A DNA stretch of 23,764 nucleotides from a virus. Positions 6,021 through 21,861 of this stretch are shown piece by piece. The notes below the pieces were generated by a model. It did no database searches, was not told where the DNA came from, and saw only the letters and a list, made by a program, of their open reading frames with translations. Position numbers and translations under genes: made by a program. The DNA lies in the IMG/VR virus record IMGVR_UViG_3300033149_007071, positions 1-23,764 of that record. One strand, 5' to 3'. Each line of letters opens with the position of its first letter. The stretch's first letter is position 1.

Positions 6021-6980
6021 ATGGTCATTGCGCACGTGAGTCTTACGCCCCTGGAGGGGGCCGCCTGGGCGGCGGCGGAGGCCTTCCGCGAGGCGGGCTT
6101 CGAGAGCTTCTGCATCGCCCCCGAGGCCTACGACAGCGGACGGGCGATGCCGACGGACTACCGCCTTCCGCCCATGGGCCCGGCGGTGGCCAGGCTCGAC
6201 GCCGCCGACGTGGTCCTCTGTCACCAGCAGGGCGCGTTTGACGAACGCTGGTTCCCGAAGGGCAAGCCCAGCGTGATATGGATCCACCTGCCGTGGCGGC
6301 CGGGCGCCCGTGACGGCCCGCCGCCGGCCGACGGCTGGCCGTGGGGCATGTCGGGAGGGCTTCGACCGGCGCCGCAGACGAGCGCCCCGCCGCTGCCCGA
6401 GCTGGTGCCGCTGAAGCACCGGCTCTTCCAGGTCGGCAGGAAGCCTCGCGGCCGCGTGCGGATTGCCTACTGCCCGGCCGGCGGCGCGGGCAACTGCCGG
6501 GGCGATCCGGCCCACGAAGTGACGATGGCCGCCCTGGCCGGCCTGAACGCCGACGCGGAGGTGATCGTGGGCCTCTCCTTCGCCGCCAGACTCGGGCGAA
6601 TGGCCGCCGCACACATCGTGATCGACGGGTCTGCCGGCGGGTCGTACGGGCGCACGAGCTTGGAGGCCCTCGCCCTGGGCTGCGTGGTCGTCAACAACTG
6701 CGATGCCTTGAGGGCGTGGAACATCCAGCGGATGACCGGAGGCTGCGGGCACCCCTTCGAACTGGCCGGCCCGACCCGACTGCACAGGGCGCTTCGCCGC
6801 CTCATCGATCTTGGCCCGGCCGCCCTCGCGCACATGGGCCGGCGAAACCGGCGGTGGCTCGCCGCCGCGTGGAACCCGGCAGAGTCCATTCACCGGAACC
6901 TCAAGCCGCTGATCGACGCGGCGCTGGCCCGTCAGGAGAGCCTCTGCGGCCGCGGCGATCGGCGATCGGCGACCCGGTAG
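6021..6980 (+). CDS. GT-B-like glycosyltransferase
   Basis: A 319-residue protein. The start 'MVIAHVSLTPLEGAAWAA' matches the first beta-strand and glycine loop of a GT-B fold (acceptor domain). The C-terminal half has 'SYGRTSLEALALGCVVVNN' at about residues 209-227, the donor-binding signature of GT-B enzymes with the conserved Glu before an 'ALALG' helix. The enzyme would transfer a sugar from a nucleotide donor to an unknown acceptor. It lies between portal and scaffold, an uncommon place for such an enzyme, so a capsid or DNA component could be the target. A longer start at GTG 5946, overlapping the portal stop, exists. The ATG at 6021 is preferred because 'gagggt' precedes it and the fold begins there. 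A structural protein with a Rossmann-like fold is the alternative. Confidence 0.65.
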   Translation: MVIAHVSLTPLEGAAWAAAEAFREAGFESFCIAPEAYDSGRAMPTDYRLPPMGPAVARLDAADVVLCHQQGAFDERWFPKGKPSVIWIHLPWRPGARDGPPPADGWPWGMSGGLRPAPQTSAPPLPELVPLKHRLFQVGRKPRGRVRIAYCPAGGAGNCRGDPAHEVTMAALAGLNADAEVIVGLSFAARLGRMAAAHIVIDGSAGGSYGRTSLEALALGCVVVNNCDALRAWNIQRMTGGCGHPFELAGPTRLHRALRRLIDLGPAALAHMGRRNRRWLAAAWNPAESIHRNLKPLIDAALARQESLCGRGDRRSATR

Positions 6981-6998: not shown

Positions 6999-7892
6999 AT
7001 GGATCACCCTCTCGGACCAGTGATGCCCGAAGAGGCCTCCGACAGGCCGGCCGTGGGGCCCGGAGAGGCCCCTCAGCCATTGCGGCCATCGGCTGACTCG
7101 ACGCGGCAGGAATCAGCCGGCGGGGCGGAGGCCCCGCAGGAGGCGCTCGGCGATCGGGGAGTTGTCTCCCGCGCCGAGTTCAACAAGGTCGTCGGCCAGC
7201 GGCAGGCGGCCAAGGAGAAGGTACGGCAACTGACGGCGGAAGTGGAGGAGCTGCTTGCTCGTCTCCACGCGATGCCCGGTGACGAGGAGCTGCGAGCGTT
7301 CCAGGACTGGAAGAGACTCCAGCAGGAGGCGGGAGTACCCCCCGCCCAACAGGGGCAGGACCTACAGGCCATGGCCCATCGAGTTCGTCAGCCGCTGAAG
7401 GACCGGATCGAGGGCCTCCAGCGCCGCAAGGACGCACTCGAGCGACGGCTCATGGACCTGCTGCGAGATCAGGAACTGCGGGCCGCGGCGGCACGCGCCG
7501 ATGCGATCAACCCGGAACAGGTGGTCGCCCTGCTGCGCGACCGCGTGCGCATGACCGAGACGGACGACGGCCGCTTCGTGCCGGAGTTCGCCGATGCCGA
7601 CGGTCAGCCGGTCTTTGACGGCCCGCAGCGAGTGACCGACACGGACGCGTTCGTCAACCGGTTCCTCTCCCTGCCCGAGAACGCCAACCTTGTCCGATCC
7701 ACCGTGACCCCCGGCAGCGGCGCGAAGCCGGCCGGGGGACTGGCAGTCAACTTGGACTCGATGCCCCGCACGAAGGCCGAGTTCCTCTCCCTGCCGCCGG
7801 ATGAGCGGCTCGGCGTCGCCAATCGGATGACCCGGCAGCAGCGCGACGCCCTCCTGGGCAGGGACTCCTCCGACGGCGGGGGATACCTCTAG
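6999..7892 (+). CDS. Capsid scaffold protein
   Basis: A 297-residue protein immediately before the major capsid gene, the usual scaffold position. The N-terminus is Pro/Ala-rich and likely disordered. Two heptad-rich segments follow ('KEKVRQLTAEVEELLARLH' at about 68-88 and 'LKDRIEGLQRRKDALERRL' at about 130-150). The middle part is variable, and a short basic C-terminal region contains 'RMTRQQRD' and ends 'SSDGGGYL'. Scaffold proteins of this size bind capsid subunits through a short C-terminal helix and leave during maturation. The same C-terminal region recurs in the protein at 22676-23005. No protease is visible, so the scaffold might leave intact or be cut by an unrecognised enzyme. It ends 13 bp before the capsid start. 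Confidence 0.72.
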   Translation: MDHPLGPVMPEEASDRPAVGPGEAPQPLRPSADSTRQESAGGAEAPQEALGDRGVVSRAEFNKVVGQRQAAKEKVRQLTAEVEELLARLHAMPGDEELRAFQDWKRLQQEAGVPPAQQGQDLQAMAHRVRQPLKDRIEGLQRRKDALERRLMDLLRDQELRAAAARADAINPEQVVALLRDRVRMTETDDGRFVPEFADADGQPVFDGPQRVTDTDAFVNRFLSLPENANLVRSTVTPGSGAKPAGGLAVNLDSMPRTKAEFLSLPPDERLGVANRMTRQQRDALLGRDSSDGGGYL

Positions 7893-7905: not shown

Positions 7906-8790
7906 ATGGCTCAGACGAATACCACGACCCTCGACGCCTGGGTGCCGAGCGAGCTGATCTCGGCGGACATCCTCCAGGAAGCCCGACCGAACATCGTGGT
8001 GGCGGACCTCGTCCAGCGCGAGTTCCTCAGCACCGGGCAGGGGAAGGTCTGGGAGCAGACGCAGCTTCCGACGACCACGGCCGCCAGCGTGGCCGAGGGC
8101 GACGACCTCTCCGCCGCCGCCCGCACGCCGACGACCTCCGCGTCGATCACCGTCGGGGAGGTCGGCCTCAGCACCGAGGTGACCGACCTGGCGCTGGAGA
8201 CCGCGATCGTCGGCGACCTGGCGGTCTGGGCGCGGAGCTCCGGCCGGGCGATCGCCCAGAAGGTCGACGGCGACCTGTGTGCCCTGTTCGCCGGCCTCAA
8301 CGGCTCCGGCAGCGGCGAGGTCGGCACCTCCGGGAGCGACCTGACCATCGCCGACTTCATCGAGGCGATCTACACGCTCGAGCTCAGCAACGCGCCCGGG
8401 CAGATGGTCTGCGTGCTCCACCCGGTGCAGAAGATGGACCTGTTCAACGAGCTGACGTCCACGTCGAACAACGCGGCCGTCTTCACCAACCTGCACGAAC
8501 TGGTGCGGGAAGGGCGGCTGCCGCAGGGCGTCTCCACCAATGGGTTCTGGGGCGTCTTCTGCGGCGTGCCGATCTACGTCACCACCGAGGTGGACACCGC
8601 CAACAGCGGCGCCGACCGCGCCGGGGCGATGTTCGTCCCGGAGGCGATGACGCTGGTGCAGCTCCGGCCGCTTCGCGTGGAGTACCAGCGCGACGCCTCG
8701 GCTAGAAGCACGGAGGTGGTCGCGACCATCGCCTACGGCGTCGGGGAGAACGTCGACACGTACGGCGTGCCCATCATCACGGACGCGTAA
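7906..8790 (+). CDS. Major capsid protein, HK97-type
   Basis: A 294-residue protein with strong 'aggagag' upstream of its ATG. The pattern is that of the HK97 fold: a Ser/Thr/Ala-rich N-arm, a region of short beta strands with 'TTTAASVAEGDDL' (E-loop area), an axial-domain segment, a long alpha-helix around 'DFIEAIYTLELSN' and 'PVQKMDLFNELT', and a closing strand 'YGVGENVDTYGVPIITDA'. HK97-fold capsid proteins are usually 280-390 residues, so the size fits. It would form the icosahedral shell. No delta-domain-like prefix is seen, which fits a separate scaffold. It is followed by a hairpin (8834-8863), as expected for a highly expressed gene with partial transcription stop. Confidence 0.8.
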   Translation: MAQTNTTTLDAWVPSELISADILQEARPNIVVADLVQREFLSTGQGKVWEQTQLPTTTAASVAEGDDLSAAARTPTTSASITVGEVGLSTEVTDLALETAIVGDLAVWARSSGRAIAQKVDGDLCALFAGLNGSGSGEVGTSGSDLTIADFIEAIYTLELSNAPGQMVCVLHPVQKMDLFNELTSTSNNAAVFTNLHELVREGRLPQGVSTNGFWGVFCGVPIYVTTEVDTANSGADRAGAMFVPEAMTLVQLRPLRVEYQRDASARSTEVVATIAYGVGENVDTYGVPIITDA

Positions 8791-8833
8791 CACCCCCCAC
8801 TGCGCACGGCCGTAAGACGGTAACAGAGGCTCG

Positions 8834-8863
8834 CGGCGGGGCGCCTTCCGGGGCGCCCCGCCG
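8834..8863 (+). terminator. 12-bp GC-rich hairpin after the capsid gene
   Basis: The stem 'cggcggggcgcc' (8834-8845) pairs perfectly with 8852-8863 around a six-base loop. It has no T-run, so it may act as a partial terminator or RNA-stabilising hairpin rather than a full stop. It lies between the capsid gene and the next gene on the same strand. Confidence 0.6.
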
Positions 8864-8886
8864 GGGGCCGAAACGAAGGGATCGCC

Positions 8887-9471
8887 ATGTACGAAGACGT
8901 CTACGATCTGAGCGAATCCGAGGCCCTTCAGGTCCAGGAGATCCTCGCCGAGATGTCCCTCCGCGGCGGGCGGCTGACCGGGCCGGACGGACGACCCGTG
9001 GCCTTTCGCATCCTCCGCGGAAGGCGCTTCCTGGTCTGCGACAAGGGGCTGATCTGGCGGTTCGCCCCGGTCGGCAGGCCGCAGGTCCCCGGCCAGGCGG
9101 GCGGCGTGCCCCGGCGGAACAACGCCGTCGAGATGTGGACCGGCAGATGGAGAAAGACCCGCACGCCCGAAGGCAAACAGACCTACGCGAAGTGCCTCGT
9201 CTGGGTGCCGATCGACGACCACATCAACGGCCATCCCGGCATCTCCAAGCTGGGCTGGTACCAGTCGGAGAAGGGCTTCAAGCATCCCCTCGCCGAACCG
9301 CACGCCCCCAGCGCCGAGGAGATCGCCGCCCTGGACGGCCGTGCGAAGGCGACCAGCGGCGCCGTCTACGCCCGCATGCAGGCTGAGGGGCTCAACGTGC
9401 CCGACGAGCCGGCCGGCGGGGCAGGCGGCGGGAAACGGACCCCCGCCCGGAGCAAGCGGCGTGCCTCTTGA
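8887..9471 (+). CDS. Unknown phage protein after the capsid gene
   Basis: A 194-residue protein that I do not recognise. It starts acidic ('MYEDVYDLSESEALQVQEIL'), has a glycine-rich turn 'GGRLTGPDGRPV', and ends in a long basic low-complexity tail (Gly/Lys/Arg, about the last 25 residues), which suggests nucleic acid binding or a disordered region. The ribosome site is 'gaaggg'. Its place between the capsid and the connector-like proteins points to a head protein such as a decoration, DNA-completion or internal protein. It shares an overlapped end with the small gene at 9461. Confidence 0.55.
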   Translation: MYEDVYDLSESEALQVQEILAEMSLRGGRLTGPDGRPVAFRILRGRRFLVCDKGLIWRFAPVGRPQVPGQAGGVPRRNNAVEMWTGRWRKTRTPEGKQTYAKCLVWVPIDDHINGHPGISKLGWYQSEKGFKHPLAEPHAPSAEEIAALDGRAKATSGAVYARMQAEGLNVPDEPAGGAGGGKRTPARSKRRAS

Positions 9472-9613
9472 CCGGAACACGGTGGACCGGCTCGCGGGAC
9501 GGCAGATCGCCGATCTCCAGAAGACGCGCAGCGTCAGCGACGCCGAGAAGCGCCGCATCCGGAAGATGCACGAGCAGATCGCCCGGAAAGTCGAGAAGAG
9601 ATCGCGCGGATAA
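9461..9613 (+). CDS. Small basic helical protein
   Basis: A 50-residue protein from a GTG with 'ggag' about 7-10 bases upstream, overlapping the previous gene by 11 bp. The sequence is charged and helical ('DAEKRRIRKMHEQIARKVE'). It may be a small head component or coiled-coil adaptor. Short length and absence of a recognised motif keep confidence moderate. Confidence 0.45.
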   Translation: MPLDRNTVDRLAGRQIADLQKTRSVSDAEKRRIRKMHEQIARKVEKRSRG

Positions 9614-9671
9614 CGCGCACGATGCGGCGGCCCCGGCACGGACCGCCGCGCCCTTCCACGAAAGGTCACAC

Positions 9672-10472
9672 ATGGCGCGGAAATGGGAGTCCATCATCTG
9701 CTACGAGGACCGCGGCGGCGAGTTCCATACGTCGCGATGGCGGCTGGCGGGGATCAAGACCAAGGAGGGCGGCGAGAACACCGACGGCGGCGTGCTCTGG
9801 CTGGAGATGCACCGTGCGGGCGACACGGTGACGGCCGACCTCTACAAGAGCCCGGCCCGCGGCGCCTCGGACAAGGTGGCCACCGGATCGGCCGATGTCT
9901 CGGGCATCGACGGCACCGGCGCCGCCGCGGCCGAGCTGGAGCTCTCCGAGGCCAACTCCAGCGGCATGAGCGGGTCGTTCCGGATACACCAGTACCGCGC
10001 CGACGGCGTCTGTCCGGTGCAGGTGGCCCTCTGCGTGGACGAGGACCTCGACGCCCTGTGGGACGGGACCGCGTCGCTCGGCGGCTACGATTCCACCTTC
10101 GGCTGCGCGGAGTTCATCCGCCTGGCCGGGGAGGACGTCCTCGCCAAGGTCAACGCGATGTTCCGGGACCAGCTCGGCGGGCACGGTGCGGCCGAAGCGT
10201 TCTTCATCGCCGACGCCTCGCGAAGCTACCCGGACCTCCGGCGGATCGCCAACCCCGCCCAGCTCCGCATCGCCTGCGCGCACCGCGCCCTGGCGATCGG
10301 CGTCGGGCGGAGCCACAAGATGGGCGGCGAGACGATGTACAGCCGGCTCCGCGACTACCATCAGGCGGAGTACGAAAGGGCAATGGCCTCGCTGGTCCTC
10401 GCCATTCGCCCGGGCGACGGAAACGCCGCCGCGCGAGGCGCCGCCGGGGCCGTGCGCCAGTCGCGAGTGTGA
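9672..10472 (+). CDS. Putative head-tail adaptor or connector
   Basis: A 266-residue protein. The first 100 residues look beta-rich ('GGEFHTSRWRLAGIKTKEGG', 'DTVTADLYKSP'). The C-terminal 110 residues are helical, with 'PAQLRIACAHRALAIGVGRS' and 'YHQAEYERAMASLVLAI'. A helical bundle of this kind, in the position after the capsid, is typical of gp6/YqbG-type head-tail adaptors, which bind the portal ring and link it to tail proteins. The first beta-rich part is unusual for that family and may be an added domain. The ATG at 9672 is the natural start; an in-frame extension upstream is only a GC-rich shadow. The stop overlaps the GTG at 10469 that could start the next gene. Confidence 0.5.
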   Translation: MARKWESIICYEDRGGEFHTSRWRLAGIKTKEGGENTDGGVLWLEMHRAGDTVTADLYKSPARGASDKVATGSADVSGIDGTGAAAAELELSEANSSGMSGSFRIHQYRADGVCPVQVALCVDEDLDALWDGTASLGGYDSTFGCAEFIRLAGEDVLAKVNAMFRDQLGGHGAAEAFFIADASRSYPDLRRIANPAQLRIACAHRALAIGVGRSHKMGGETMYSRLRDYHQAEYERAMASLVLAIRPGDGNAAARGAAGAVRQSRV

Positions 10473-10504
10473 TCCCGTCCGAATCAAACAATGCGAGCCG
10501 AACC

Positions 10505-11005
10505 GTGAGCGCCATCACCGTTGCCAATGCCGACTGGTCGATCGTTCAGGCCGTCAAGTCCGCCCTGAGCGACGCGACGATCGACTCGGCGGCCGTGTTC
10601 CAGTCCGTCACGGTGACCACCTCCGACGCCCAGGCCGGGGAGTGCCAGTTCCGCGACTCCCCCATCGCCGTCCTTCGATACGTGACGACGCGGGAGGACG
10701 ATTCGCCGGAGGACGTCCGGGGCTGCCGCGTCGTGCTGGAGTTAATCGTGGCGGCGATGGTGGAATGCACGGCCGCGGACGAATCCTCGCGTCTCCAGGA
10801 GATCCTGCGTCTGAAGAACGCGGCGATCAACGCCGTCGAGACCGATGCGCCGGCGGACTCCAGCGCCTGGGGGGACGGCGACCATTACCACAAGCGGCTG
10901 GCATGGGGCCGCCCCGAGATCGACACGGCCGTCTCTCAGCCCTGGGCGGTGTGCAAGCTGCCCCTTGAGGTCGGATTCGTCCTCGACAACGGAACCTCCC
11001 ACTGA
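10505..11005 (+). CDS. Putative tail-completion or tail terminator protein
   Basis: A 166-residue protein following the adaptor-like gene. The pattern 'ITVANADWSIVQAVKSALSD' followed by beta strands and a helix 'SRLQEILRLKNAAINAVE' resembles tail-terminator (gp17/gpU-like) proteins, which cap the tail and join it to the head. This is a structural guess from position and secondary structure only. The GTG at 10505 is chosen, with a start at GTG 10469 overlapping the previous stop as the alternative. Neither has a strong ribosome site. Confidence 0.5.
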   Translation: MSAITVANADWSIVQAVKSALSDATIDSAAVFQSVTVTTSDAQAGECQFRDSPIAVLRYVTTREDDSPEDVRGCRVVLELIVAAMVECTAADESSRLQEILRLKNAAINAVETDAPADSSAWGDGDHYHKRLAWGRPEIDTAVSQPWAVCKLPLEVGFVLDNGTSH

Positions 11006-11026
11006 CTTCCTCAGGAGCAAGAGATC

Positions 11027-11407
11027 ATGGCATTCAACGTGTACCACAACCCGCAGGACGTGGCGCTGGGCAGCAGCCCGATCACCGGCGTGCAGTCGAT
11101 CGTGGTTTCCGTGCGGTACGGCGAGATTCACGCCGCCGGGGACGACGACGCCCACGAATCCGTGGCGCGGCATACGACCGCACGGACTTCCGGCACGATC
11201 ACGCTGCTGGACCCGACCAGCGCCGACGGCGTCCAGGGCCAGACCGGAACGCTCTCGTTCACCTGGAAGGACGTCAAGGGCAGCAGCGACAAGACCGTGA
11301 CCATCGAGAATGCCTCGATCGGCGGCTACGACGCGACGGTGGCCCGGGACGCCGCCTCGAGCGTCACGCTTCCGTTCATCGCCGAGTCGGCCCCGTCGAT
11401 CGCGTGA
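11027..11407 (+). CDS. Tail tube-like beta-rich protein
   Basis: A 126-residue protein with a good ribosome site ('aggagcaagag'). It is dominated by alternating beta strands rich in Thr/Ser/Val ('SIVVSVRYGEIHA', 'TSGTITLLDPTS', 'GTLSFTWKDVKG'), as seen for the tube proteins that make hexamer rings. It follows the tail-terminator slot and precedes the assembly-chaperone slot, which is the usual place of the tube gene. Similar beta-sandwich proteins can also be capsid decoration proteins. It ends overlapping the start of the next gene. Confidence 0.5.
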   Translation: MAFNVYHNPQDVALGSSPITGVQSIVVSVRYGEIHAAGDDDAHESVARHTTARTSGTITLLDPTSADGVQGQTGTLSFTWKDVKGSSDKTVTIENASIGGYDATVARDAASSVTLPFIAESAPSIA

Positions 11408-11859
11408 TGGACCCCGAGGCGGTCAGGAAGCTCGAGGCCGAGCGCCGCCGCGGGCTCGGCGAAGCGCTGCATCCCGACCGGTGCCCGAAGCTGACGCTTC
11501 ACGGCGTGGCCTTCGCCATCCCGCCTCGGCGCCGCTGTGTCGTGCCCGTATTCGCACCGGACGGCGTGAAGATCCAGACGCGCGACGGGGTGGACTTCCC
11601 GGAGCCCTCGCGCCTCGTGGAGCTGGCGGACGTCGCGGAGCAGGAGCCCTGTCCCGAGTGCGGCCAGCCGCGCAGCGTCTCGCTCGCCGTGACGGTGGAG
11701 CACAACGCCGAGTTCCTCCGGACGGCCTTCTCGCTGGCGGGAAAGCTCCTGGACAGGCAGTACGATCTCTCCGCCGAGCGGAAGGCCGATCTGCTGAAGT
11801 TCGACGCCGGGCGACTTCCCGCATGGATCCCCGAACTGCTTGCATGGTGCACCCAATGA
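11407..11859 (+). CDS. Protein in the tail assembly chaperone position
   Basis: A 150-residue protein from the ATG at 11407 (a GTG at 11404 overlapping the previous stop adds one residue). The N-terminus is charged ('EAVRKLEAERRRGLGEALHP') and a CPECGQP zinc-knuckle-like motif lies at about residues 78-84 with other cysteines around. The remainder is helical ('FLRTAFSLAGKLLDRQYDL'). In tail operons the gene after the tube is normally an assembly chaperone, often joined to the next by a frameshift; here the next gene has its own overlapping ATG (ATGA at 11856), so separate translation is likely. The zinc knuckle is unusual for that family, so function is uncertain. Confidence 0.45.
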   Translation: MDPEAVRKLEAERRRGLGEALHPDRCPKLTLHGVAFAIPPRRRCVVPVFAPDGVKIQTRDGVDFPEPSRLVELADVAEQEPCPECGQPRSVSLAVTVEHNAEFLRTAFSLAGKLLDRQYDLSAERKADLLKFDAGRLPAWIPELLAWCTQ

Positions 11860-12551
11860 CCACGGACGTGCTGAAGGTCGAGCTCGAGCCGCAGATCGCC
11901 CGGTCGCTGCTCGCGGCCAAGGAGCTGCTGAGTCTGGTCCGGCACTCCGGCGGCGCGAGCCGAGCCCCGGGCGCCGAAGACCTGGCCGGCCTGTACGGAG
12001 CCACCGGTCCGGCGGCCCTGAGAGCCGGGGCCCTGCGCCCGGATGCGTCCGCGGCCGCATCTTCCAGCGCTGAGGAGGCGCCCGATGAGGCGACGGATCG
12101 GCGATCGGATCCAGCCGAGGCGCGGGAGGGCGACAGCGCTCTGCGGGGCCCGCAGATTCCTCCAGCGGCGACGGGCCGTCAAGAAGGCGAGCCGCCTATG
12201 GCCGTGGCACGCCGCGTCCGTCCCGTCGGCAATCGCCGGTCGCCGCGACGCGACGGCGAAACAGCGCACGACGCGCAGGCCGTGCTCGCCGAGTCCGACC
12301 AGTCGGGTTCTCTGCCATGGCCCGGTGGTTTCCTGACGCCGGCGGGTGAGCCCGGCCGCGACCGGACGGGACCCGCCGCACAGGCAGACGACCCCACACC
12401 GCCTGAGGCAGGTGATGAACCCGGGCCGCCGGGCCGAAGCATCACCGTCATCTACGGCGACAAGATCGACGCAAACAACTACTACGGCAGGATCATCGAC
12501 AACGCCAACACCACGGCGGTGCGGGGCGGCACGACGGACGACATGGAGTAG
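11856..12551 (+). CDS. Protein with long disordered region, chaperone or tail slot
   Basis: A 231-residue protein whose ATG overlaps the previous stop. Residues 1-35 are helical ('VELEPQIARSLLAAKELLS'), the next about 155 residues are Ala/Pro/Gly/Asp-rich and probably disordered, and the end forms a folded stretch containing 'ITVIYGDKIDANNYYGRIID'. A second open frame begins at 12085 inside it with the strong ribosome site 'gaggagg'. It lies where the second assembly chaperone or a tape measure would be found. It is too short and too disordered to be a tape measure. Function unknown. Confidence 0.4.
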   Translation: MTTDVLKVELEPQIARSLLAAKELLSLVRHSGGASRAPGAEDLAGLYGATGPAALRAGALRPDASAAASSSAEEAPDEATDRRSDPAEAREGDSALRGPQIPPAATGRQEGEPPMAVARRVRPVGNRRSPRRDGETAHDAQAVLAESDQSGSLPWPGGFLTPAGEPGRDRTGPAAQADDPTPPEAGDEPGPPGRSITVIYGDKIDANNYYGRIIDNANTTAVRGGTTDDME

Positions 12552-12626
12552 CTCCGCCCGGCCGGGCTTGGAGCCAGCCCCCCACGGCTTGCGAAGCGGC
12601 ACGACCCTCAGACAGGTGATTCTTCG

Positions 12627-13034
12627 ATGGCCAATCCGACCTTCGACGGCACAGCCTTGACCACTGACGCGGCCGCGGAGCGCATCGGCTCTCCGGGGGC
12701 GCGCGTCCGAACGGAGAAGATGCCCGGCGTCAAGGGCGAGTTCGTGCAGACGGACCACTTCTCGGGTCGCGACATCATCGTGACGGGCATCTACCGCGGC
12801 ACACCGGCGGCCCTGACGCTGGACGCCCAGGCGGCTCTCAAGAGTTCCCTGCGGGCGATCCAGTCGAAGGTGGCCGATGGCGTGGGGGCGTATGTGGGCG
12901 TCGATGCCAACACGTATCCGACGTGCGTGCTGAAGTCCTTCCGCCCGGTCGGCGGCACGCGCTACATTCGCGTCGCCGGCAACTACCAGGCGCTCGTCCG
13001 CGTGCGGGCCGTGATCCGCGACCTCAATCCGTGA
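12627..13034 (+). CDS. Beta-rich tail-associated protein
   Basis: A 135-residue protein of alternating strands: 'GRDIIVTGIYRGTPAALTL' and 'TYPTCVLKSFRPVGG', then 'RYIRVAGNYQALVRVRAVI'. The layout resembles small tail or baseplate components that make beta-sandwich rings, but I do not recognise a family. 'gacaggtgattcttcg' before the ATG offers a modest 'agg' ribosome site. It is the first gene of the tail-tip and fibre block. Confidence 0.45.
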   Translation: MANPTFDGTALTTDAAAERIGSPGARVRTEKMPGVKGEFVQTDHFSGRDIIVTGIYRGTPAALTLDAQAALKSSLRAIQSKVADGVGAYVGVDANTYPTCVLKSFRPVGGTRYIRVAGNYQALVRVRAVIRDLNP

Positions 13035-13109
13035 GGCCGGTCCGCAACGAAGCCATTCCCCGAGCGGACATTCGGCGCTGCGGCCGGTGCGGCCCCAGAG
13101 TAAGCGAGC

Positions 13110-13847
13110 ATGGGCTACTACACTGACGAGATCTCCATATCCCGCATCGACGAGATCGACCTCGGCCTGATCGTAACCGCCAAGGCCCTGCACGCCGAGA
13201 GGGTCATCCAGTGTTACGTCTCGGGTGATCTGGTCGCATGGCGGCAGCCGGAGGAGGGGATCGTCCGCTTCGTGCTCCCGCAGGCCGGCCCGGAAGACAC
13301 GATCCTTCTGCTGGCCGTCGACGCGGCGGACCGCGCATGCGACTACTGGTCGCAGGCGTTCGGGACGAACGATCGGTACGGAAACCGGGTGAAAGTGGAT
13401 TTTCGCCTGGACCTGCTCGACGGATACAGGCCGGGCGACAGGTGGCGGGTGTACCGCGGCAACGCCGGGGGTTCCGAGGCCGCCATCAAGCTGTACGAGG
13501 CGGAGGTCTTTCCCGGCGGCCGGGGCGCCTGCGGGTGGGGCCTCGACTGGGGCAACGGCGGATGGGGCTACAGCGGCTCCAACGCGCCCGGCTGGGGATA
13601 CCACTGGGGCTACACGTGGGGCTTCGGCATCGACTACCTGCGGTACATCACCCAGCCCCTGACGCGGGGGACCTACCCGGTGAAGGTCGATGTCGTGGAC
13701 GAGCACGGCAACGCATCGACGGCCTACGAGACGTCCGTGGTGATTGACACCTTCGCCCGGCCGGCCGACGACCTGGCCGTCTCATCGTATACGAAGGGCT
13801 CGGACACACTCGTTCTGGCAATGACTCCGAGTGAGGACATCTCCTGA
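13110..13847 (+). CDS. Tail protein with Gly/Trp/Tyr-rich insert
   Basis: A 245-residue protein. The N-terminal half has beta strands ('DLGLIVTAKALHAERVIQCY', 'GIVRFVLPQAGPEDTIL'). In the middle (about residues 146-172) is a Gly/Trp/Tyr-rich stretch with GWG-, NGGWG- and GYTWG-like steps, probably a loop or surface patch. Near the end 'YPVKVDVVDEHGNAST' and 'AYETSVVIDTFARPADD' look like an Ig/fibronectin type III-like domain. Such proteins sit at the tail tip or fibres. It overlaps the next gene by one base (TGATG). Confidence 0.45.
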   Translation: MGYYTDEISISRIDEIDLGLIVTAKALHAERVIQCYVSGDLVAWRQPEEGIVRFVLPQAGPEDTILLLAVDAADRACDYWSQAFGTNDRYGNRVKVDFRLDLLDGYRPGDRWRVYRGNAGGSEAAIKLYEAEVFPGGRGACGWGLDWGNGGWGYSGSNAPGWGYHWGYTWGFGIDYLRYITQPLTRGTYPVKVDVVDEHGNASTAYETSVVIDTFARPADDLAVSSYTKGSDTLVLAMTPSEDIS

Positions 13848-14755
13848 TGGCTGAAACCGACCTGACCGCGACAGAGGCCAACGCGCTTCACGGCACCACC
13901 GACGGCGACACGGGCTTCACCTACCATTCGCCCGGCGACGCGGAGTATTTCACCGAAGGCCAGCGCCAGCGACAAAGGCTGTTGACGCTCGCCAAGGCGC
14001 TTGGAAACAAGTTCCGCGTCTACAAGGACGGCACGAACACGTACGGCGTCCGTCCCGGCAAGGTGGAGAACGGCGACTCGACGCTCTCCTATGCCGGATC
14101 GACCGGAAACGCGCTGACCGACAACCAGACGAACTACATCTGGCTGTACATTGAGTCGGGGGCGTTGACGCTGGACACGTCCACGAGCGGCTTCCCGGAC
14201 CCCTCCGACACGCCGCACATCCCCCTGGCGACGATTGCGGTTGCCTCCGGCTCCTACGCCTACACGGACATCATCGACTGCCGGCAGTTGGCGTGCTTCT
14301 CGCTGAATTCCGCCGCCACGGCCGCCGATCTGAACACGCTGGTGGGGGGCTCCACGGCCGACTCGCTGCACACACACGACGCGGCGGGCCTGGTCTCGGG
14401 GCTTCAGGACGCCATCCCCCGGATCGACTTCGAGGGCACCGACGACGAGGACGGCACCGGCTCGATGACGATCAAGGTCCTGGACGCCGCGGGCAATCAG
14501 CTCATGCAGGAGTTCCTGATTCGCACGTGGATCGCGGACGCGGACATGTCCGAACCCGACCCCCAGACGGACTACAGCGTGACCAGCGGCGAGCAGATGC
14601 GCGAGATCGAGGCGAACGCCGACTACGAGGTCATCACCAACGACCTCGGCTACGCCACCATGAACATCGACGCGGGCGGGGCCAAGACGGTGTACGTCAT
14701 GGCCGAACTGGACGGGCGGATCTACTCGCAGTCCCTGGCGATCACGGCAGCATAA
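13847..14755 (+). CDS. Tail fibre-like protein with HxH motif
   Basis: A 302-residue protein. A middle segment 'ADSLHTHDAAGLV' carries an HTH (His-Thr-His) motif of the kind that binds metal in trimeric phage fibre needles. The N-terminal part (about 1-90) may attach to the tail, and the rest is beta-rich ('GSMTIKVLDAAGNQLMQEFL', 'YATMNIDAGGAKTVYVMAEL'). It would take part in host recognition, together with the tailspike encoded just downstream. The ATG overlaps the stop of the previous gene. Family assignment is from motif and context only. Confidence 0.5.
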   Translation: MAETDLTATEANALHGTTDGDTGFTYHSPGDAEYFTEGQRQRQRLLTLAKALGNKFRVYKDGTNTYGVRPGKVENGDSTLSYAGSTGNALTDNQTNYIWLYIESGALTLDTSTSGFPDPSDTPHIPLATIAVASGSYAYTDIIDCRQLACFSLNSAATAADLNTLVGGSTADSLHTHDAAGLVSGLQDAIPRIDFEGTDDEDGTGSMTIKVLDAAGNQLMQEFLIRTWIADADMSEPDPQTDYSVTSGEQMREIEANADYEVITNDLGYATMNIDAGGAKTVYVMAELDGRIYSQSLAITAA

Positions 14756-14770
14756 GACGCGGAGGTCGCA

Positions 14771-15823
14771 ATGGCCACCTACTACGCGGACGGAACGCTG
14801 GCGACGGGCAACAACGACGGCTCGTCGTGGGACGACGCCTGGCAGGGCGCGGCGGGGCTTCAGCAGCTCTGCGATACGCTCCAGGCCGGCGACGTCGGCT
14901 ACATCCGCAACACGTTCACCCTGACGGCGCCGATCGACATCGACCAGCACTCCGGCTCCGACGGCAGCCCCATCCGGGTGATCGGCTGCAACGCGGCGGG
15001 GGAGGTGGACGGCACGCAACCCGTGATCGACGGCGACGGTGCCGCCGCCAATTGCCTCGCGATTGCAGGCATGCACGATTGGATGTGGGAGAACGTCTGC
15101 TTTGAACACTCCACTTCACATGTAATCGCCGGTAACGAGGCCAGCGATGTATCGAGGTGGACGTTCAGGCGCTGCGGTATCGCATCGAGCGGCGGAGCGG
15201 GACTGTACAACGGCGGATCAAAGTACTTCGCCCACCTGATGCTGCACGAGTGCCTTGTCGCGTGGAACGACTCTTACGGCATCTACCGCGCGGGCCACGC
15301 CAGCCATGTGGTCGGCTGTACGGTCAAGGACAATGGCGACCACGGGATCTACGCCGGGGGCTACGGGCTGGTGGTTGCGGACTCCGTCGTACACAACAAC
15401 GGCGGCGAGGGACTTCACACCATCTCCTACGGCGTGTGTATTATCAATAGCGTCATCGACGGCAACACGAGCAATGGGGTCTATCTGCACAATTACGGTA
15501 CCGTGCGGCGGTGTCGAATCACGAACAACGGTGGCTATGGGATCGACATCGGCACCGCGAGCGTTATGGACCGCTGGAACTTCTTCTCCGGCAACAGCAG
15601 CGGGCCGGTCAACGGCTCGACCGCGTTCCCGAACGACAAGGGCGCCTCGACGCGGCTGACGAGCGGGACCGTGGGCTACGAGAACCGCTCGATCGACAGG
15701 TTCAACCTTCGCGTCGGGGCGGCGGGGTACGGGACGGAGATCGAGCTGTTCGGCGGAAATTACGCCCGCGCGCCTAGGGGCCTGCCGACGACGATTCTGC
15801 CCAGGATCGAGGACCAGGGATGA
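14771..15823 (+). CDS. Parallel beta-helix tailspike, pectate-lyase-like
   Basis: A 350-residue protein starting 'MATYYADGTLATGNNDGSSW', a start typical of tailspike and pectate-lyase-like proteins. The middle consists of regular coils with glycine turns and recurring N/D ladders ('DNGDHGIYAGGYGLVVADS', 'NNGGEGLHTISYGVCIINS', 'NTSNGVYLHNYGTVRRCRI'), the right-handed parallel beta-helix pattern. These proteins bind and often cleave surface polysaccharides of the host. Catalytic residues cannot be assigned. A 'ggag' lies shortly before the ATG at 14771. It is followed by an overlapping ATG (15820). Confidence 0.78.
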   Translation: MATYYADGTLATGNNDGSSWDDAWQGAAGLQQLCDTLQAGDVGYIRNTFTLTAPIDIDQHSGSDGSPIRVIGCNAAGEVDGTQPVIDGDGAAANCLAIAGMHDWMWENVCFEHSTSHVIAGNEASDVSRWTFRRCGIASSGGAGLYNGGSKYFAHLMLHECLVAWNDSYGIYRAGHASHVVGCTVKDNGDHGIYAGGYGLVVADSVVHNNGGEGLHTISYGVCIINSVIDGNTSNGVYLHNYGTVRRCRITNNGGYGIDIGTASVMDRWNFFSGNSSGPVNGSTAFPNDKGASTRLTSGTVGYENRSIDRFNLRVGAAGYGTEIELFGGNYARAPRGLPTTILPRIEDQG

Positions 15824-16371
15824 TGCACGTCAAACCGGGAGCAACGAACGTCAGCGCGTACTTTCTACTTCAGGACGCCGTGACCGGCGGGCCGTACACG
15901 ACGACCGGCGGAGAGACGAGCTTCAACCTCATCTACCAGCGCGACGGCGCCGCCCAGGTCTCCAACGACGTTACGGGAGCCCTCGGCAGCGCGACGGCGC
16001 CCCACACGGACAACAAGGTCTACCACTGCGGAGGCGGCCTCTGGCGGTGCGACTTCCCCGACGCGGCCTTCGCCGTTAATTCTGATCGCGTGACCCTGAT
16101 GGTCACCCACGACGACGGCGCGTTCCTTCCCGCGCTGCGCAGCGCCGAGCTGGCCGCCGGGGAGGCGGTCTTCGCCGCGGACATTGACTCCACCGGCGCG
16201 CCGACGAGCGCGGCCAAGGCGATCGAGGCCATTCTCGCCGTGGTCGCGGGAAACGCCTCCTTCACGGAATCCACGGGCGTCACATCCTTCAAGGGCCGGG
16301 ACGGCACCACGGAGATCGTCACCAACACGGTCGATGACGTGGGTGACAGATCGGGCTGCTCGATAAGCTGA
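15820..16371 (+). CDS. Beta-rich tail or fibre protein
   Basis: A 183-residue protein overlapping the tailspike end by four bases. Strands 'ATNVSAYFLLQDAVTGGPY' and 'TSFNLIYQRDGAAQVSND' followed by an aromatic patch 'VYHCGGGLWRCDFPDAAFA' suggest a single beta-sandwich module, and 'AAKAIEAILAVVAG' adds a helix. The C-terminus is polar and short. This kind of small protein often connects or decorates spike and fibre proteins. Function is not certain. An in-frame ATG at 15823 may be the true start. Confidence 0.5.
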   Translation: MMHVKPGATNVSAYFLLQDAVTGGPYTTTGGETSFNLIYQRDGAAQVSNDVTGALGSATAPHTDNKVYHCGGGLWRCDFPDAAFAVNSDRVTLMVTHDDGAFLPALRSAELAAGEAVFAADIDSTGAPTSAAKAIEAILAVVAGNASFTESTGVTSFKGRDGTTEIVTNTVDDVGDRSGCSIS

Positions 16372-16397
16372 TCGCTCGACCAGGAGGCTCTCGACAA

Positions 16398-17057
16398 GTG
16401 GCAAGGGTCTACCATCCATTCGGATACTGGCCGCTGAGGTACTTCCCCGGCTTCTACCTCCCGAACATCTCCCACGGCCATCGCGTCTACCGCGGAGTAG
16501 GGGGGCTGCCGAACGTCGATTGGGATACCCCTGTCGGGTTTGCTCAAGCCGACTCGACGACCATCGCCGTCACCGGCGCGGGGCACGCGGCCTCGACGCG
16601 GTACACGTACGCGGTCCGCCCCGTGGCCGGCAACGGCTGGCTGGAAACGCCGGACGTCTCCAACACCTGCGAGTTTGAGACGGACGGCTCCGGCGATTGG
16701 ATGGGCGCGCGGCCCGCCGCGGTGGAATGGCTTGACGCCGCGGTGGAAGCCGGCGGGGAGATCAAGCTCTCCTGGTCGTGGCGCAGGCCGTACGGCGCGG
16801 CCGTGCCGGAGGATTTCGCCCTCTACTGCGCAACCAGCCCACAAATCGCGCCCGGCAGCCCCCAGGCCACCGAGCCGTTTGTCTCGCAAGGCCTCTATTC
16901 GCACACGTTCTCCCTGGCGAACGGGCAGTCCTACTGGTTTGCCGTGACGGCCCGCGCCTCGGGCGTGGAATCGGATCTCTCGAGGATCATTGGTCCATAC
17001 GTCGCGGACGCTGCGGCGCCCGGCGCGCCGACCGCTTCTGTTTCCACCACGTTCTAG
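16398..17057 (+). CDS. Fibronectin type III-like tail protein
   Basis: A 219-residue protein from a GTG with 'aggagg' about 11 bases upstream. The start is an aromatic-rich segment ('YHPFGYWPLRYFPGFYLP'). Two Ig/fibronectin type III-like repeats follow: the first around 'RYTYAVRPVAGNGW', the second around 'GEIKLSWSWRRPY' to 'QSYWFAVTARASGVESD'. Such domains decorate tails and aid weak binding to cell surfaces. It stands just before the hub gene. No enzyme motif is seen. Confidence 0.6.
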   Translation: MARVYHPFGYWPLRYFPGFYLPNISHGHRVYRGVGGLPNVDWDTPVGFAQADSTTIAVTGAGHAASTRYTYAVRPVAGNGWLETPDVSNTCEFETDGSGDWMGARPAAVEWLDAAVEAGGEIKLSWSWRRPYGAAVPEDFALYCATSPQIAPGSPQATEPFVSQGLYSHTFSLANGQSYWFAVTARASGVESDLSRIIGPYVADAAAPGAPTASVSTTF

Positions 17058-17095
17058 CCAGGCCGCCTCGGTGCGGCCAGGAGACGGTGTACCTG

Positions 17096-19318
17096 ATGAC
17101 CAGGATCACTTGGGTTTCCGACTCGCGCGGAGCGGAGTACCGTGCTCCGGCATTCCGGGTCTACGTCTCGCGCGTGGTGGCCGCCCCCGAGGCGGAAGAG
17201 TCCAAGCCCGGCGGGTGGCTTGGGGAAGTCCGTGCGGCGTACTGGAAGCCGCTGCGGCTGAACTGGGGCGTCAACGGCAGGCCGAGTACGCTGACGCTTC
17301 GCCGCGTGCTGGGCGTGGGCGCGGGAAAGGCCTCAAGGACCAGGGCGGAAGACGAGTGCCTCGTTGCGGGGGACCGGGTCCGCCTCGTGGAGGTCCAGCG
17401 CGGTGGCTCCCAGGGGACGGCCCGGCGCGAGTGGTTCCGAGGCCACATCGCGCAGGAGAGGATTCTCGTTCAGGCCGATCCGGACGGCGAGACCGGCGAG
17501 GTCGTGGCCTATGGCCCGGAGATCCTGCTCCAGGGCAAGGCCGTTTCAGGTCAGTGGCACGCGGCCCCGGACGCGGACGAGAGCGTAATCAGTGGCACAT
17601 TCTCCCCGGAGCTGCTGAGACGGGAGAACACTTTTCGCAGTCACCTGCCGGTCGTATTCAATGAGGCGGGGCGCCCAAACGCCTCGCCCAGCCAGAGCGG
17701 CGGAAACGACGCACGGTGGCGCCTCGACAGCGGCTCCGAGGCCGAGAGCGCCGAAGGCAGGACCTTCGAGGCGGCCGGGCGTAGGGTCGCCGCGGCCGGG
17801 GCCACGTACGAGGCGACAACCTGGCGGGCGAGGGCGGCTGTCCAATCCCTGATCGAGATGGTCGACGACTACGAGATCATCTCGCCGGAGTCGGTGTCCC
17901 TGCTGCCGTCGGGACTGTCCGACCGAGCGATCGGCGAGGTCGACGTCGAGGGGATGAACCTGCTGGAAGCGCTTCGCGCCGTGCTCCTGCCGATCGGGTA
18001 TGGCTTTGCCCTTGAGCCCTGGGCCGACCAGGTCGGGCGGCACCAGTTGCGCGTCTTCGCGCTCCACGGGGCCGTTGAGGGCTCGCGGGTCCGCAAGCCG
18101 TACGTGGCCCCGATCTGCGGCGCGGCCGCCCGGATCACGGATCCCGCGGCGCAGCGAGCGGAGGTCCAGCGGATCGAGTTCGTCCGAGACAACCACAACG
18201 TCGCGAACGACGTAACGGTCGTCGGAGATCAGAAGCGCAAGCAGGTCACGCTGGTCTTTGCGTCGTCGGGATCGCAGTTGAAGCCGGCCTGGGACACCGA
18301 GGCACACGACCTGGCCGACTGGGCCACTGGCAACGTGGTGGACCCGATGCAGTGGCCCGTGCAGGGGCAAAGCGAACGGACGGTGGAGTACTTCGACGAG
18401 CGGTTCACGTACGGCGCAAAGGGGAACACGGATTATCGGCACGTCTTCAGGAGCTTCGCCTGGAACGAGGACGGCGCGTTCAACGAAGTGATCGGCCAGA
18501 TGGGCGATCTTCATGACTACGGCGTGGGGGCCGAGCAGAACTACGTTCGCAGGCCCCGGCCGGTCGGGCCGACATTCCTTCGCGACGACGCGACCGCGCA
18601 GGCGCGGAACCTCCCGAGCTTCGTCCAACTGGGGATCGAGGGCGACGAGGATTCCTGGATCCAGATCCCGGCGGTGATCTGGGCCGGCCGAGCCGGCTTC
18701 ACGATCCCGATCAACCCGCTGTGGCAGTGGTTTCCCTACACCAGCCAGTACGCCCGCCACGCCGCGGCCGGCGGGGAGACGCTCTTCGAGAAGCACGGCG
18801 GCGACAGTTACCTGACACTGCTTCACAACACGCTTCGCGGCGGCGGGAAGAAGCTCGTCCTGCGGCTGGTGGGCTCCATCGAGTGCGACGAGGCGGTGAC
18901 GGGTCGGGCCGGGCGGCGCGTGGGCAGCTCATGGCCCCTCACGGCCGCCAGGGTGATCCGGGCGGAGAATCGCTTCCGTCATCGAGACGTCCCCGGCGGC
19001 TCCGATCCGCTGTCTCTGGAGGCGAGCCGCCACGACACTCGGGACGATTCCGAGGACGCCGCGGACTTCGCCCGCGGCATCCGGGACGTGCTGGAAGACG
19101 AGGTCGGGCACGGGTCCATGACCCTGCGCCACCTGACGCGCGCCTACGCTCCGGGGGACGTGATTCCCGCCACGCGGGGCCGCGTCATCGACCTGACCGT
19201 CCGCGGCGGAGAGGCAGCCCACGGGCCGGTCGTCGTCGAGGTGGTCTGGAACTTCCAGGACGGCGCCAACAAGACGGAGCTGGTTCTGGACACGCCCTTG
19301 CTGAAGGTCACGCAATGA
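17096..19318 (+). CDS. Large tail hub or tip protein
   Basis: A 740-residue protein, the largest in the window. The first third contains 'RVYVSRVVAAPE', 'PLRLNWGVNGRPSTLTLRRV', 'GDRVRLVEVQRG' and 'GEVVAYGPEILLQGK', a series of beta strands like the gpD/gp27-type hub. The middle has 'VEGMNLLEALRAVLLPIGYG', a motif common in tail hub proteins. The end has 'SMTLRHLTRAYAPGDVI' and 'GRVIDLTVRGGEAAHGPVV', beta-rich again. It probably lies at the tail tip and holds the fibres and the spike. The ATG at 17096 follows a 'caggag' ribosome site. No lytic domain is seen. Assignment is from layout and position. Confidence 0.55.
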   Translation: MTRITWVSDSRGAEYRAPAFRVYVSRVVAAPEAEESKPGGWLGEVRAAYWKPLRLNWGVNGRPSTLTLRRVLGVGAGKASRTRAEDECLVAGDRVRLVEVQRGGSQGTARREWFRGHIAQERILVQADPDGETGEVVAYGPEILLQGKAVSGQWHAAPDADESVISGTFSPELLRRENTFRSHLPVVFNEAGRPNASPSQSGGNDARWRLDSGSEAESAEGRTFEAAGRRVAAAGATYEATTWRARAAVQSLIEMVDDYEIISPESVSLLPSGLSDRAIGEVDVEGMNLLEALRAVLLPIGYGFALEPWADQVGRHQLRVFALHGAVEGSRVRKPYVAPICGAAARITDPAAQRAEVQRIEFVRDNHNVANDVTVVGDQKRKQVTLVFASSGSQLKPAWDTEAHDLADWATGNVVDPMQWPVQGQSERTVEYFDERFTYGAKGNTDYRHVFRSFAWNEDGAFNEVIGQMGDLHDYGVGAEQNYVRRPRPVGPTFLRDDATAQARNLPSFVQLGIEGDEDSWIQIPAVIWAGRAGFTIPINPLWQWFPYTSQYARHAAAGGETLFEKHGGDSYLTLLHNTLRGGGKKLVLRLVGSIECDEAVTGRAGRRVGSSWPLTAARVIRAENRFRHRDVPGGSDPLSLEASRHDTRDDSEDAADFARGIRDVLEDEVGHGSMTLRHLTRAYAPGDVIPATRGRVIDLTVRGGEAAHGPVVVEVVWNFQDGANKTELVLDTPLLKVTQ

Positions 19319-20196
19319 ACCCGACCCAACGACAGTTGCTGCTCGCGCAGCGTCGTATGACGGCGGCGCTGGCGGCAGCCGAAGCGCCGGCCCTGCGGGA
19401 CGAGCCGCTGCGGCGGCCGGACGTCCTTCGCCGGGGCATCGCGAGGATCGACAGCAACGAGGGAGAAGCTGCGTACAAGGTCACCGAGCTGTGGTGGGAT
19501 CCCGACGGCCGGGAGTGGACTGCCGCCGCGGGCCCGCTGGGCCTCGAGCAGGCAGACGCCGTCGACTACACGCACAACGCGTGCGGAGAGGTCGGCGACG
19601 TCGTGCGCTTCTGGGAGCATCGCGGCCTGGATGGCCGGACGCAACTGCTCATCGACGTCACCGGGGGCCGGGCCGGCCTCCAGAAACTCTCCTCCTTCTG
19701 TGTCCACTATTCCGGCACGAACACGACCGCGGTGTTTCACAGCGTCCCGAACTGCAAGAACGCGCTGCTCGAAGTGGGCATTGACGTGCGAAGGTGTTCG
19801 GCACACGCGGGTCCTCCCGACCCCGACCACCCCGGCGACACGACGATGGGCGTCACGGGAGGGTTTATGGGCTTCGGCTGGTGCAACGCGCTGGCCACGT
19901 GGTCCGGTGGGGATTGGTGCAACCTGAAGTATCTGGCCCGGGCGGCAAACGGGGCGGTCGAGGGCGACGGCGCAAACGCGATCACGAGCTTTCACATCCA
20001 GTGCCGGGTCACCGCCGCCGGGAATCTGGATTTCCGAATCGAGAACGTCACCGGCGGCTGTGTCAGCGTCGTCGTCGCCGCGGCGATGCGGATTATGCCG
20101 TTCCCCGAGACGCCTCCCGGAACACTGGAACTCGGCAACTGCTGCTGCCACGATGACTACATGGACGACGAGTATCAATGGGGCGAGATCCCCTGA
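19315..20196 (+). CDS. Cysteine-rich tail protein of unknown function
   Basis: A 293-residue protein whose ATG overlaps the hub stop by four bases. The N-terminus is helical and Ala/Arg-rich ('LLLAQRRMTAALAAAEAPAL'). The middle is beta-rich, and the C-terminal half is rich in cysteines, ending with 'NCCCHDDYMDDEYQWGEIP'. The odd three-cysteine patch and acidic, aromatic end suggest a metal site or disulfide-linked surface. It is translated in line with the hub and is probably an accessory tip or fibre protein. I do not recognise the family. Confidence 0.5.
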   Translation: MNPTQRQLLLAQRRMTAALAAAEAPALRDEPLRRPDVLRRGIARIDSNEGEAAYKVTELWWDPDGREWTAAAGPLGLEQADAVDYTHNACGEVGDVVRFWEHRGLDGRTQLLIDVTGGRAGLQKLSSFCVHYSGTNTTAVFHSVPNCKNALLEVGIDVRRCSAHAGPPDPDHPGDTTMGVTGGFMGFGWCNALATWSGGDWCNLKYLARAANGAVEGDGANAITSFHIQCRVTAAGNLDFRIENVTGGCVSVVVAAAMRIMPFPETPPGTLELGNCCCHDDYMDDEYQWGEIP

Positions 20197-20813
20197 CAAC
20201 AAAGACGGAACTCGGAACCCGGAACCCGTTCAACGGCTGCCGGCACGGCGCCCTGCGAACCCGATACTTGGGGCTCGCGGGCGTTCAGCTCGCCGTGCTC
20301 GACGGCCACGGCATTAATGAGCACCTCGCGCGCTGGAGTCAGAGGTTCCCCCATCGTTGGCGAGTCGAGGGCTCGCCCAATCGCAAGGGAATCCCGGACG
20401 CCAAGAACGGGATCTTCCGCGCCTTTCGGGACAGGTGCGACCTGCCGTGGCTGCTCATGATGGACGACGACTGCGTCCCGCTGCCGGAAACGGAGGCTCT
20501 GCTGACCTGCCAGGCCCCCATCGCCGGCCCCCGCATCATCGGAACGACCGGAGAGGAAGCGCACGCGCACTGCCTCAGCGCTGCTTGCGTGAAGATCAGC
20601 CGCGAGGCGATCGAACGGATCCCCGAGCCGTGGTTCCGCTGGCCCGCTCGCGGAGGCTGCTCGTGCAGTTGGTTTTTCAACCGGGCGTACCAGGCCGGCT
20701 ATCGGCCTACCCACGCCGGCGTCATCGGCCACCGCTTCCCCGTGGTGGTCCTGCCGGGGAAAGACGGCCCGGTGTTCCGGTTCGATTCGGAGATCCGCAG
20801 TGCCCAGGTGTGA
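20178..20813 (+). CDS. GT-A-like glycosyltransferase
   Basis: A 211-residue protein that starts inside the end of the previous gene. The segment 'LPWLLMMDDDCVPLPETEAL' (DDD at about residues 96-98) is the DXD metal and nucleotide-sugar site of a GT-A fold, preceded by 'AKNGIFRAF' as in family 2-like enzymes that pick a sugar. The C-terminal 'GYRPTHAGVIGHRF' fits the catalytic half. It would add a sugar to an unknown acceptor, perhaps a fibre or capsid protein. It is short for the family, so it may be a minimal or partial enzyme. The start may be further downstream, as no strong ribosome site precedes 20178. Confidence 0.62.
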   Translation: MGRDPLTTKTELGTRNPFNGCRHGALRTRYLGLAGVQLAVLDGHGINEHLARWSQRFPHRWRVEGSPNRKGIPDAKNGIFRAFRDRCDLPWLLMMDDDCVPLPETEALLTCQAPIAGPRIIGTTGEEAHAHCLSAACVKISREAIERIPEPWFRWPARGGCSCSWFFNRAYQAGYRPTHAGVIGHRFPVVVLPGKDGPVFRFDSEIRSAQV

Positions 20814-21096
20814 CCCGAACGACGCCATCCCGCGCACGTGCTCAGATGCCTTTGGCCGGATCGCCGAGCGTCTGGCCCGCATCGAGGAAACCGGCAAGGC
20901 CATCCACGAACAGACGGTCAGGACGAACGGCCGCGTGACGGAGCTGTTCCGGCGAACGAACCGCCACGAGACGGATATCCGGCTGCTGCGGGCCCACGTG
21001 AGCGCCGCGGCGAAGGGCAGATCAACGTGGGGCAGACGAATCTGGCAGGTGGTCATCGGCCTGGCCCTGCTGCTGGCGGGCTACCTGCTGAGGTGA
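20800..21096 (+). CDS. XhlA-like small membrane protein
   Basis: A 98-residue protein from a GTG with 'ggag' just upstream, overlapping the previous gene by 14 bp. A coiled-coil or amphipathic segment ('AFGRIAERLARIEETGKAI', 'RVTELFRRTNRHETDIR') precedes a single C-terminal membrane segment ('IWQVVIGLALLLAGYLL', about 81-97). This order is that of XhlA-type haemolysin accessory proteins, which help a holin open the inner membrane. It lies directly before the holin gene. Confidence 0.62.
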   Translation: MPRCDPNDAIPRTCSDAFGRIAERLARIEETGKAIHEQTVRTNGRVTELFRRTNRHETDIRLLRAHVSAAAKGRSTWGRRIWQVVIGLALLLAGYLLR

Positions 21097-21510: not shown

Positions 21511-21646
21511 GCCCGTCCAGCTCGCCGAACCCGTCAAGGCCCACGTCTATATCGACGTCGCCGGCAAACGCGAGAAAAGCGCGAACCGCATCACGCTCCC
21601 GGAAGGCTGGTGGTGCCTGCCCGATCCGGTCGCCGACGCTCCATAG
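21401..21646 (+). CDS. Outer spanin-like lipoprotein, ending inside a repeat
   Basis: An 81-residue protein nested in the previous gene in another frame, with 'ggag' eight bases upstream. It has a basic start, a hydrophobic signal segment and a possible lipidation cysteine at C23 ('AFAGGC', not an ideal lipobox). The rest ('VLIPPGEPVQLAEPVK', 'RITLPEGWWCLPDP') matches small phage lipoproteins that carry 'PxGxPVxL' and 'LPEGWY.LP' motifs near lysis genes. It would sit on the outer membrane inner leaflet and may work with the upstream protein as a spanin pair. Its last residues and stop come from the first repeat unit at 21630, so its natural end may have been replaced. Confidence 0.55.
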   Translation: MRRIRPCLLAATLLALSAFAGGCGLIRSRTVLIPPGEPVQLAEPVKAHVYIDVAGKREKSANRITLPEGWWCLPDPVADAP

Positions 21647-21810: not shown

Positions 21811-21861
21811 GGCGATGACCGGCCGTGAGCGCCGATGGGGGGAGACTGGACACTTGGTACG

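Follow-up and report, generated by a model that had tools for sequence, protein, structure and literature searches.

The phage genome described here encodes two proteins with the same C-terminal end, a head scaffolding protein and a small coiled-coil protein encoded at a distance from the head genes, after holin-like genes. Comparison across two phage groups indicates, at the level of sequence, that the type of this tail goes with the capsid protein and that the tail type of the second protein goes with that of the scaffold. We consider it probable that the small protein is a phage-encoded auxiliary scaffold, acting on the capsid-protein site used by the main scaffold. The stretch of DNA analysed (the window) is the entire IMG/VR record IMGVR_UViG_3300033149_007071, 23,764 nt in length; because one relative of the phage, L008, is part of a Phycisphaerae MAG, Phycisphaerae (Planctomycetota) is probably the host class. 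The features concerned, all on the plus strand, are as follows.

6999-7892, +, head scaffolding protein, 297 aa (PHROG 206 head scaffolding, E 4.7e-15)
7761-7889, +, C-terminal tail of the scaffold, type A, 43 residues, reading MPRTKAEF..LPP..R...A.RMTRQQRD..LGR....GGYL
7906-8790, +, major capsid protein, type A (Pfam Phage_capsid_4, E 1.8e-9, above cut-off; PHROG 267, E 3.2e-18)
22414-22683, +, ORF of 89 aa that runs into the start of the small-protein gene (from the ORF list)
22676-23005, +, small coiled-coil protein, 109 aa, ending ESYL (tail match, AlphaFold2, counterparts in G145 and G225)
22868-23002, +, tail copy of the small protein, TPETLQEFNALPPAQRQAVARRMTRQQRDEVLGRQSSKEGRESYL (alignment and tail-profile match)
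23022-23399, +, 125-aa protein, coiled at its N-terminus, with a probable helix-turn-helix and a C-terminal RFL (tblastn, PHROG 66)

The main scaffold and its tail

The protein at 6999-7892 is a member of PHROG 206 / PF06810 by profile match and by its place directly upstream of the capsid gene, the match to Pfam Phage_scaffold (PF06810, E 3.5e-5) being below the gathering cut-off. It consists of a disordered N-terminus, coiled coils, an alpha/beta core, a disordered linker and a three-helix C-terminal tail ending GGYL. AlphaFold2 places helices at residues 58-91, 95-110 and 118-166 (modelled with six relatives), a linker with pLDDT < 50 at 236-252, and tail helices, all of them short, at 259-263, 267-276 and 279-285. 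Foldseek gave no significant match for the scaffold in the PDB, and only scaffold-like or unnamed phage models as its top matches among viral models; among solved structures there was no relative of the capsid protein or the scaffold, and nothing of use for the tail. The type-A tail is found on all nine type-A scaffolds, which are those of the window, of L004-L008 (54-64% identical to the window scaffold) and of G145, G163 and G225, three genomes of one order. Among five type-A scaffolds, mean pairwise identity is 71% in the tail as against 59% in the body.

A small protein with the scaffold's tail

The original prediction held that about 40 C-terminal residues are common to the scaffold and the protein at 22676-23005, and this is borne out, both ORFs being present: scaffold residues 227-297 align by blastp with residues 38-109 of the small protein (E 3.9e-12, 47% over 79 columns), and the local BLOSUM62 score is 120, compared with a mean of 39 (sd 6.4, maximum 72) in 2000 shuffles. 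Low-complexity charged sequence, which had been entertained as a possible cause of the match, is not its source, since the E-value is the same under SEG filtering; that account is ruled out by the filtered BLAST, the shuffles and the specificity of the profiles described below. Of the 31 codons in a core running from EF to SS (7779-7871 and 22886-22978), 21 specify the same residue in both proteins, 6 of them by synonymous codons, so that the pair is not a recent DNA copy. Viewed as a DNA repeat, it spans 92 nt at 73% identity and stands third in the list of the record's direct-repeat families, behind two from the repeat array at 21.6-22.3 kb.

The small ORF looks coding because its GC content by codon position (0.74/0.53/0.85) is comparable to that of its neighbours, a GAGGAG motif stands 5' of its ATG, and it overlaps the preceding ORF. 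The latter, of 89 aa, has no Pfam or PHROG family match and is probably in the same operon. For the small protein AlphaFold2 predicts helices at residues 2-25 and 32-52, then a flexible linker, and tail helices at 69-74, 77-86 and 89-95; with a mean pLDDT of 71 and a pTM of 0.31, only the secondary structure was taken from this model. As modelled, the layout of the tail is identical in the two proteins, a flexible linker being followed by three helices. The small protein itself matches neither PHROG 206 nor PF06810, and is not filed with those scaffolds because only the tail is in common; it is without the scaffold body, and the shared tail falls outside the part matched by the PHROG 206 profile. 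A direct search of viral contigs and cultured phages with the small protein gave no match.

Counterparts in type-A relatives

Three type-A genomes (the window, G145 and G225) have both a scaffold and a small tail-bearing coiled-coil protein. The region behind the tail genes is visible in G145 and G225; the viral contigs L004-L007 end too early. On G145 contig C127 the scaffold ends ..ALLGLRPNEGAGYL and the small protein, 20 kb downstream, ends ..ALCGQPVEENEGYL. This small protein (L030 9563-9982) contains two tandem tail-like copies, the first of which is diverged and resembles the tail of the G225 small protein, the second being close to its own scaffold. The G225 counterpart, of 117 aa, is encoded directly behind a tail gene, on a contig separate from that of the scaffold; its diverged tail ends SFL and retains little of RMTRQQRD, which makes strong capsid binding there doubtful. 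Scored in pairs, the small-protein tail of the window reaches 110-131 with the scaffolds of its own clade, compared with 61 when it is set against the small tail of G145; the latter scores best with its own scaffold (91, versus 62-78).

Two tail types follow two capsid-protein families

A sister group, type B, was reached via the tail protein of the window and G145; its terminase, portal and tail genes are homologous to those of type A, and its head is different. The type-B capsid protein is Gp13-like according to Pfam (E 1e-42 and 2.5e-47), not Phage_capsid_4, and profile comparison does not relate it to that of type A (0.8%). By hhalign, the two types have homologous scaffold bodies (97%, E 1e-10), and both kinds of main scaffold fall in PHROG 206. 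Profile comparison of the tails finds no homology (0.8%), and the type-B tail reads LDRNPARK..FIARHG..AYL.LAR. Since the tail changes with the capsid family while the scaffold body stays homologous, it is most likely the capsid-binding end of the scaffold. The two groups form a natural experiment in which the body is conserved and tail and capsid protein change together, and this joint change points, on sequence evidence alone, to where scaffold and capsid protein meet.

A second coiled-coil protein of about 190-215 aa, with the type-B tail as its C-terminus, accompanies the main scaffold in ten type-B loci or genomes (L045, L065, L067, L066, L064/G110, G180 on two contigs, G151, G080:C31, L089 and L092); G080:C54 shows the main scaffold only. 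The gene for this protein adjoins that of the scaffold, or lies behind the capsid gene or, in G180, behind the tail module. The second protein is found on the contig of the scaffold in most type-B loci, and likewise in G145, and the second-protein genes of G145, G225 and G180 are similarly placed, behind tail genes. In type B this protein appears scaffold-like beyond its tail. It aligns with the type-B main scaffold over 117 columns that include the tail (hhalign E 2.1e-10), and it is weakly similar to the scaffold families, with matches to PF06810 at E 0.0014 and 0.0047 and, for one member, to PHROG 206 at E 0.025. Homology between the type-A small protein and the type-B second protein is undetectable by profiles.

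Profiles made from scaffold tails only, and run on 4292 six-frame ORFs, match their own type only. With the type-A profile, the type-A scaffolds come first and are followed by the second proteins of the window (22418-23002, E 6.9e-18), G145 (4.8e-11) and G225 (6e-4); in the window record nothing is matched beyond the scaffold and the small protein. With the type-B profile, the scaffolds of that type are likewise followed by its second proteins (3e-11 to 6e-4), and the next matches of the two profiles are at E 0.11 and 0.084. Tail matches in G105 and G443, a RMTRQQRD match in L034 and a match in L096 were dismissed as chance, falling in unrelated proteins or reverse-strand frames.

In type B, the tails of scaffold and second protein are also more alike within than across genomes, as judged by permutation over 27 aligned core columns that were chosen by eye, in genomes some of which are related and not independent. 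With 8 pairs p is 0.0006 (Mantel r 0.82), with 10 pairs 0.0008, and in three non-redundant sets 0.0002 to 0.005; omission of the most striking pair leaves p at 0.0014 and 0.0065, and the use of all tail columns, in 7 pairs, gives p 0.0105. The bodies of the two proteins show no within-genome resemblance (p 0.30). Gene conversion could contribute to the resemblance of the tails, and thereby lend itself to a reading that we hold to be highly improbable, namely that the tail of the small protein is the functionless leftover of a tail-end duplication, its copies kept alike by recombination. Such a leftover would accord with the visible 92-nt repeat, and with type-A tails being closer within a clade than small tails are across clades. 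However, at ~40-50% identity the type-B tails are too distant for recent gene conversion; in the window the coding statistics are normal and 6 of the 21 shared codons differ only synonymously; and the arrangement is kept across a deep split between two groups whose tails differ.

Eight cultured phages with a Gp13-like capsid have a scaffold and no twin detectable by single-sequence BLAST and tail profiles, from which it follows that a second protein is not a general need; diverged twins would escape this screen, because in its control single-sequence BLAST gave no better than E 0.1-0.2 for two of three known type-B pairs. The scaffold of the cultured phage phiHSIC (L088 9382-10086; Gp13-like capsid) has a type-B-like end, KHSYIQEHGQAAYLKL (E 2.6e-4), which suggests that the type-B tail is old in that capsid family.

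A probable auxiliary scaffold and its alternatives

Because the second protein always has the local tail, it should bind the same capsid site as the main scaffold. The coiled coil would make the small protein a dimer or oligomer, and its three-helix tail, ending in an aromatic residue and Leu, would dock in the capsid pocket used by the tail of the main scaffold. The small protein would then enter the procapsid and share or compete for capsid-protein sites, and so might tune curvature, assembly rate or scaffold release. CpmB of SaPI1 does the same with the RIIK end of 80alpha, changing capsid size, and on these grounds we favour an auxiliary scaffold. The original prediction had likewise envisaged competition with the scaffold or guidance of assembly, and a competing or co-assembling role is still the best reading in that the tail follows the capsid family and the second protein has the tail type of the scaffold; the second head module or satellite that it placed beyond the right end finds no such backing. 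The record ends at 23,764, and the G145 contig runs past its small-protein gene into a cellular-looking gene on the reverse strand. As to a second capsid gene beyond the small protein, the window capsid protein matches one place only in G145.

The protein encoded at 23022-23399 is a possible partner of the small protein. A tblastn search with the latter matches 23058-23252 (E 3.7e-5), which is the coil of this neighbour, and the neighbour matches PHROG 66, excisionase/regulator, at E 9.6e-4; a C-terminus of F/Y followed by L/I occurs in 3 of the 31 gene models listed for the window, namely the scaffold, the small protein and this protein. Partly because the neighbour shares the coil and looks DNA-binding, the main rival to an auxiliary scaffold is cargo targeting, according to which the tail is a packaging tag and the small protein an internal or ejected protein taken into the capsid, perhaps with the helix-turn-helix neighbour as its coiled-coil partner. 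The window protein, mostly coil plus tag and encoded outside the head cluster, would fit this description, and precedent exists in T4, where the capsid targeting sequence, a short N-terminal tag of 10 residues subject to proteolytic processing, brings core-associated internal proteins into the head (PMC9026906). The tail described here resembles that sequence as a short tag common to several proteins, and differs from it in being C-terminal, ~40 residues long and present also on the scaffold itself. We nevertheless regard cargo as unlikely: the body of the type-B second protein is scaffold-like, not cargo-like, tblastn matches nothing in the other loci to the coil-sharing neighbour, and a prohead protease was not noticed in passing.

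A role outside the capsid, as an antagonist or regulator, seems to us very unlikely; in this reading the small protein would bind capsid protein (or scaffold) that is still free in the cytoplasm, so as to delay or gate assembly, or would report the capsid level to gene expression via the coiled-coil neighbour. The far-right, late position of the small-protein gene and its operon-like overlap would suit it, as would the adjacent protein, probably DNA-binding, whose C-terminus is likewise aromatic-Leu, but several type-B loci have their second-protein gene next to that of the scaffold or the capsid protein, a placement that points to a structural role.

Relation to known systems

CpmB of SaPI1 and the scaffold of 80alpha have a common C-terminal RIIK motif and bind one and the same capsid site (PMC5644958, PMC6893505), and CpmB, which is satellite-encoded, changes the capsid size of the helper phage. 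The small protein of the window is like CpmB as a small helical coil protein with the C-terminal end of the scaffold, by which it would bind the capsid. Whereas CpmB comes from a satellite and redirects its helper, scaffold and twin are here in one phage genome, terminase, portal and capsid genes being on the same record as the small-protein gene. The tail is also longer, at ~40 residues; in the small protein it reads RMTRQQRD..LGR..SYL, with no RIIK, and across the phages it comes in two unrelated types, each going with its own capsid-protein family. In P22, as described in the available part of one account, C-terminal helices of the gp8 scaffold (a helix-turn-helix) bind the coat protein (PMC9965877); the scaffold studied here similarly has helices at its C-terminal end, with a presumptive role in capsid binding. 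Unlike the present phages, P22 has a single scaffold, and that part of the account describes no second protein with the same end (PMC9965877).

Two proteins sharing a scaffold end are known from satellites; the phage-internal, capsid-type-matched form appears to be new, and no matching case of paired scaffolds inside one phage was found among the open-access papers searched. It is quite possible, although we advance this more tentatively than the auxiliary scaffold itself, that the two-scaffold system is stable in single phage genomes, the tail being an exchangeable capsid-binding plug that is swapped with the capsid protein and that the second protein must match; the two proteins would then co-evolve, and the phage would determine its own head size or dimorphism through them. 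That such pairs occur inside single phage genomes, in two sister groups whose capsid proteins and tails are unrelated, suggests a means by which phages may themselves tune capsid assembly, and phage-internal scaffold twins would be a possible source from which satellites could have drawn such a trick.

Other features

Glycosyltransferase-like proteins are encoded within the head module of both phage groups, in type A at 6104-6980 of the window, between portal and scaffold, and in type B at L061 11939-13542, behind the capsid gene. Capsid, portal and tail genes are present in the window, and a long tape-measure gene is not recognisable at 8790-21000. Positions 21629-22251 of the window are occupied by a dense palindromic repeat array, CGCCGACGCTCCATAGCTATGGCGACGGAGCG, with periods of 33, 16 and 17 nt, part of which is read in frame as SYGDGAPPTLH repeats in the ORF at 21835-22281.
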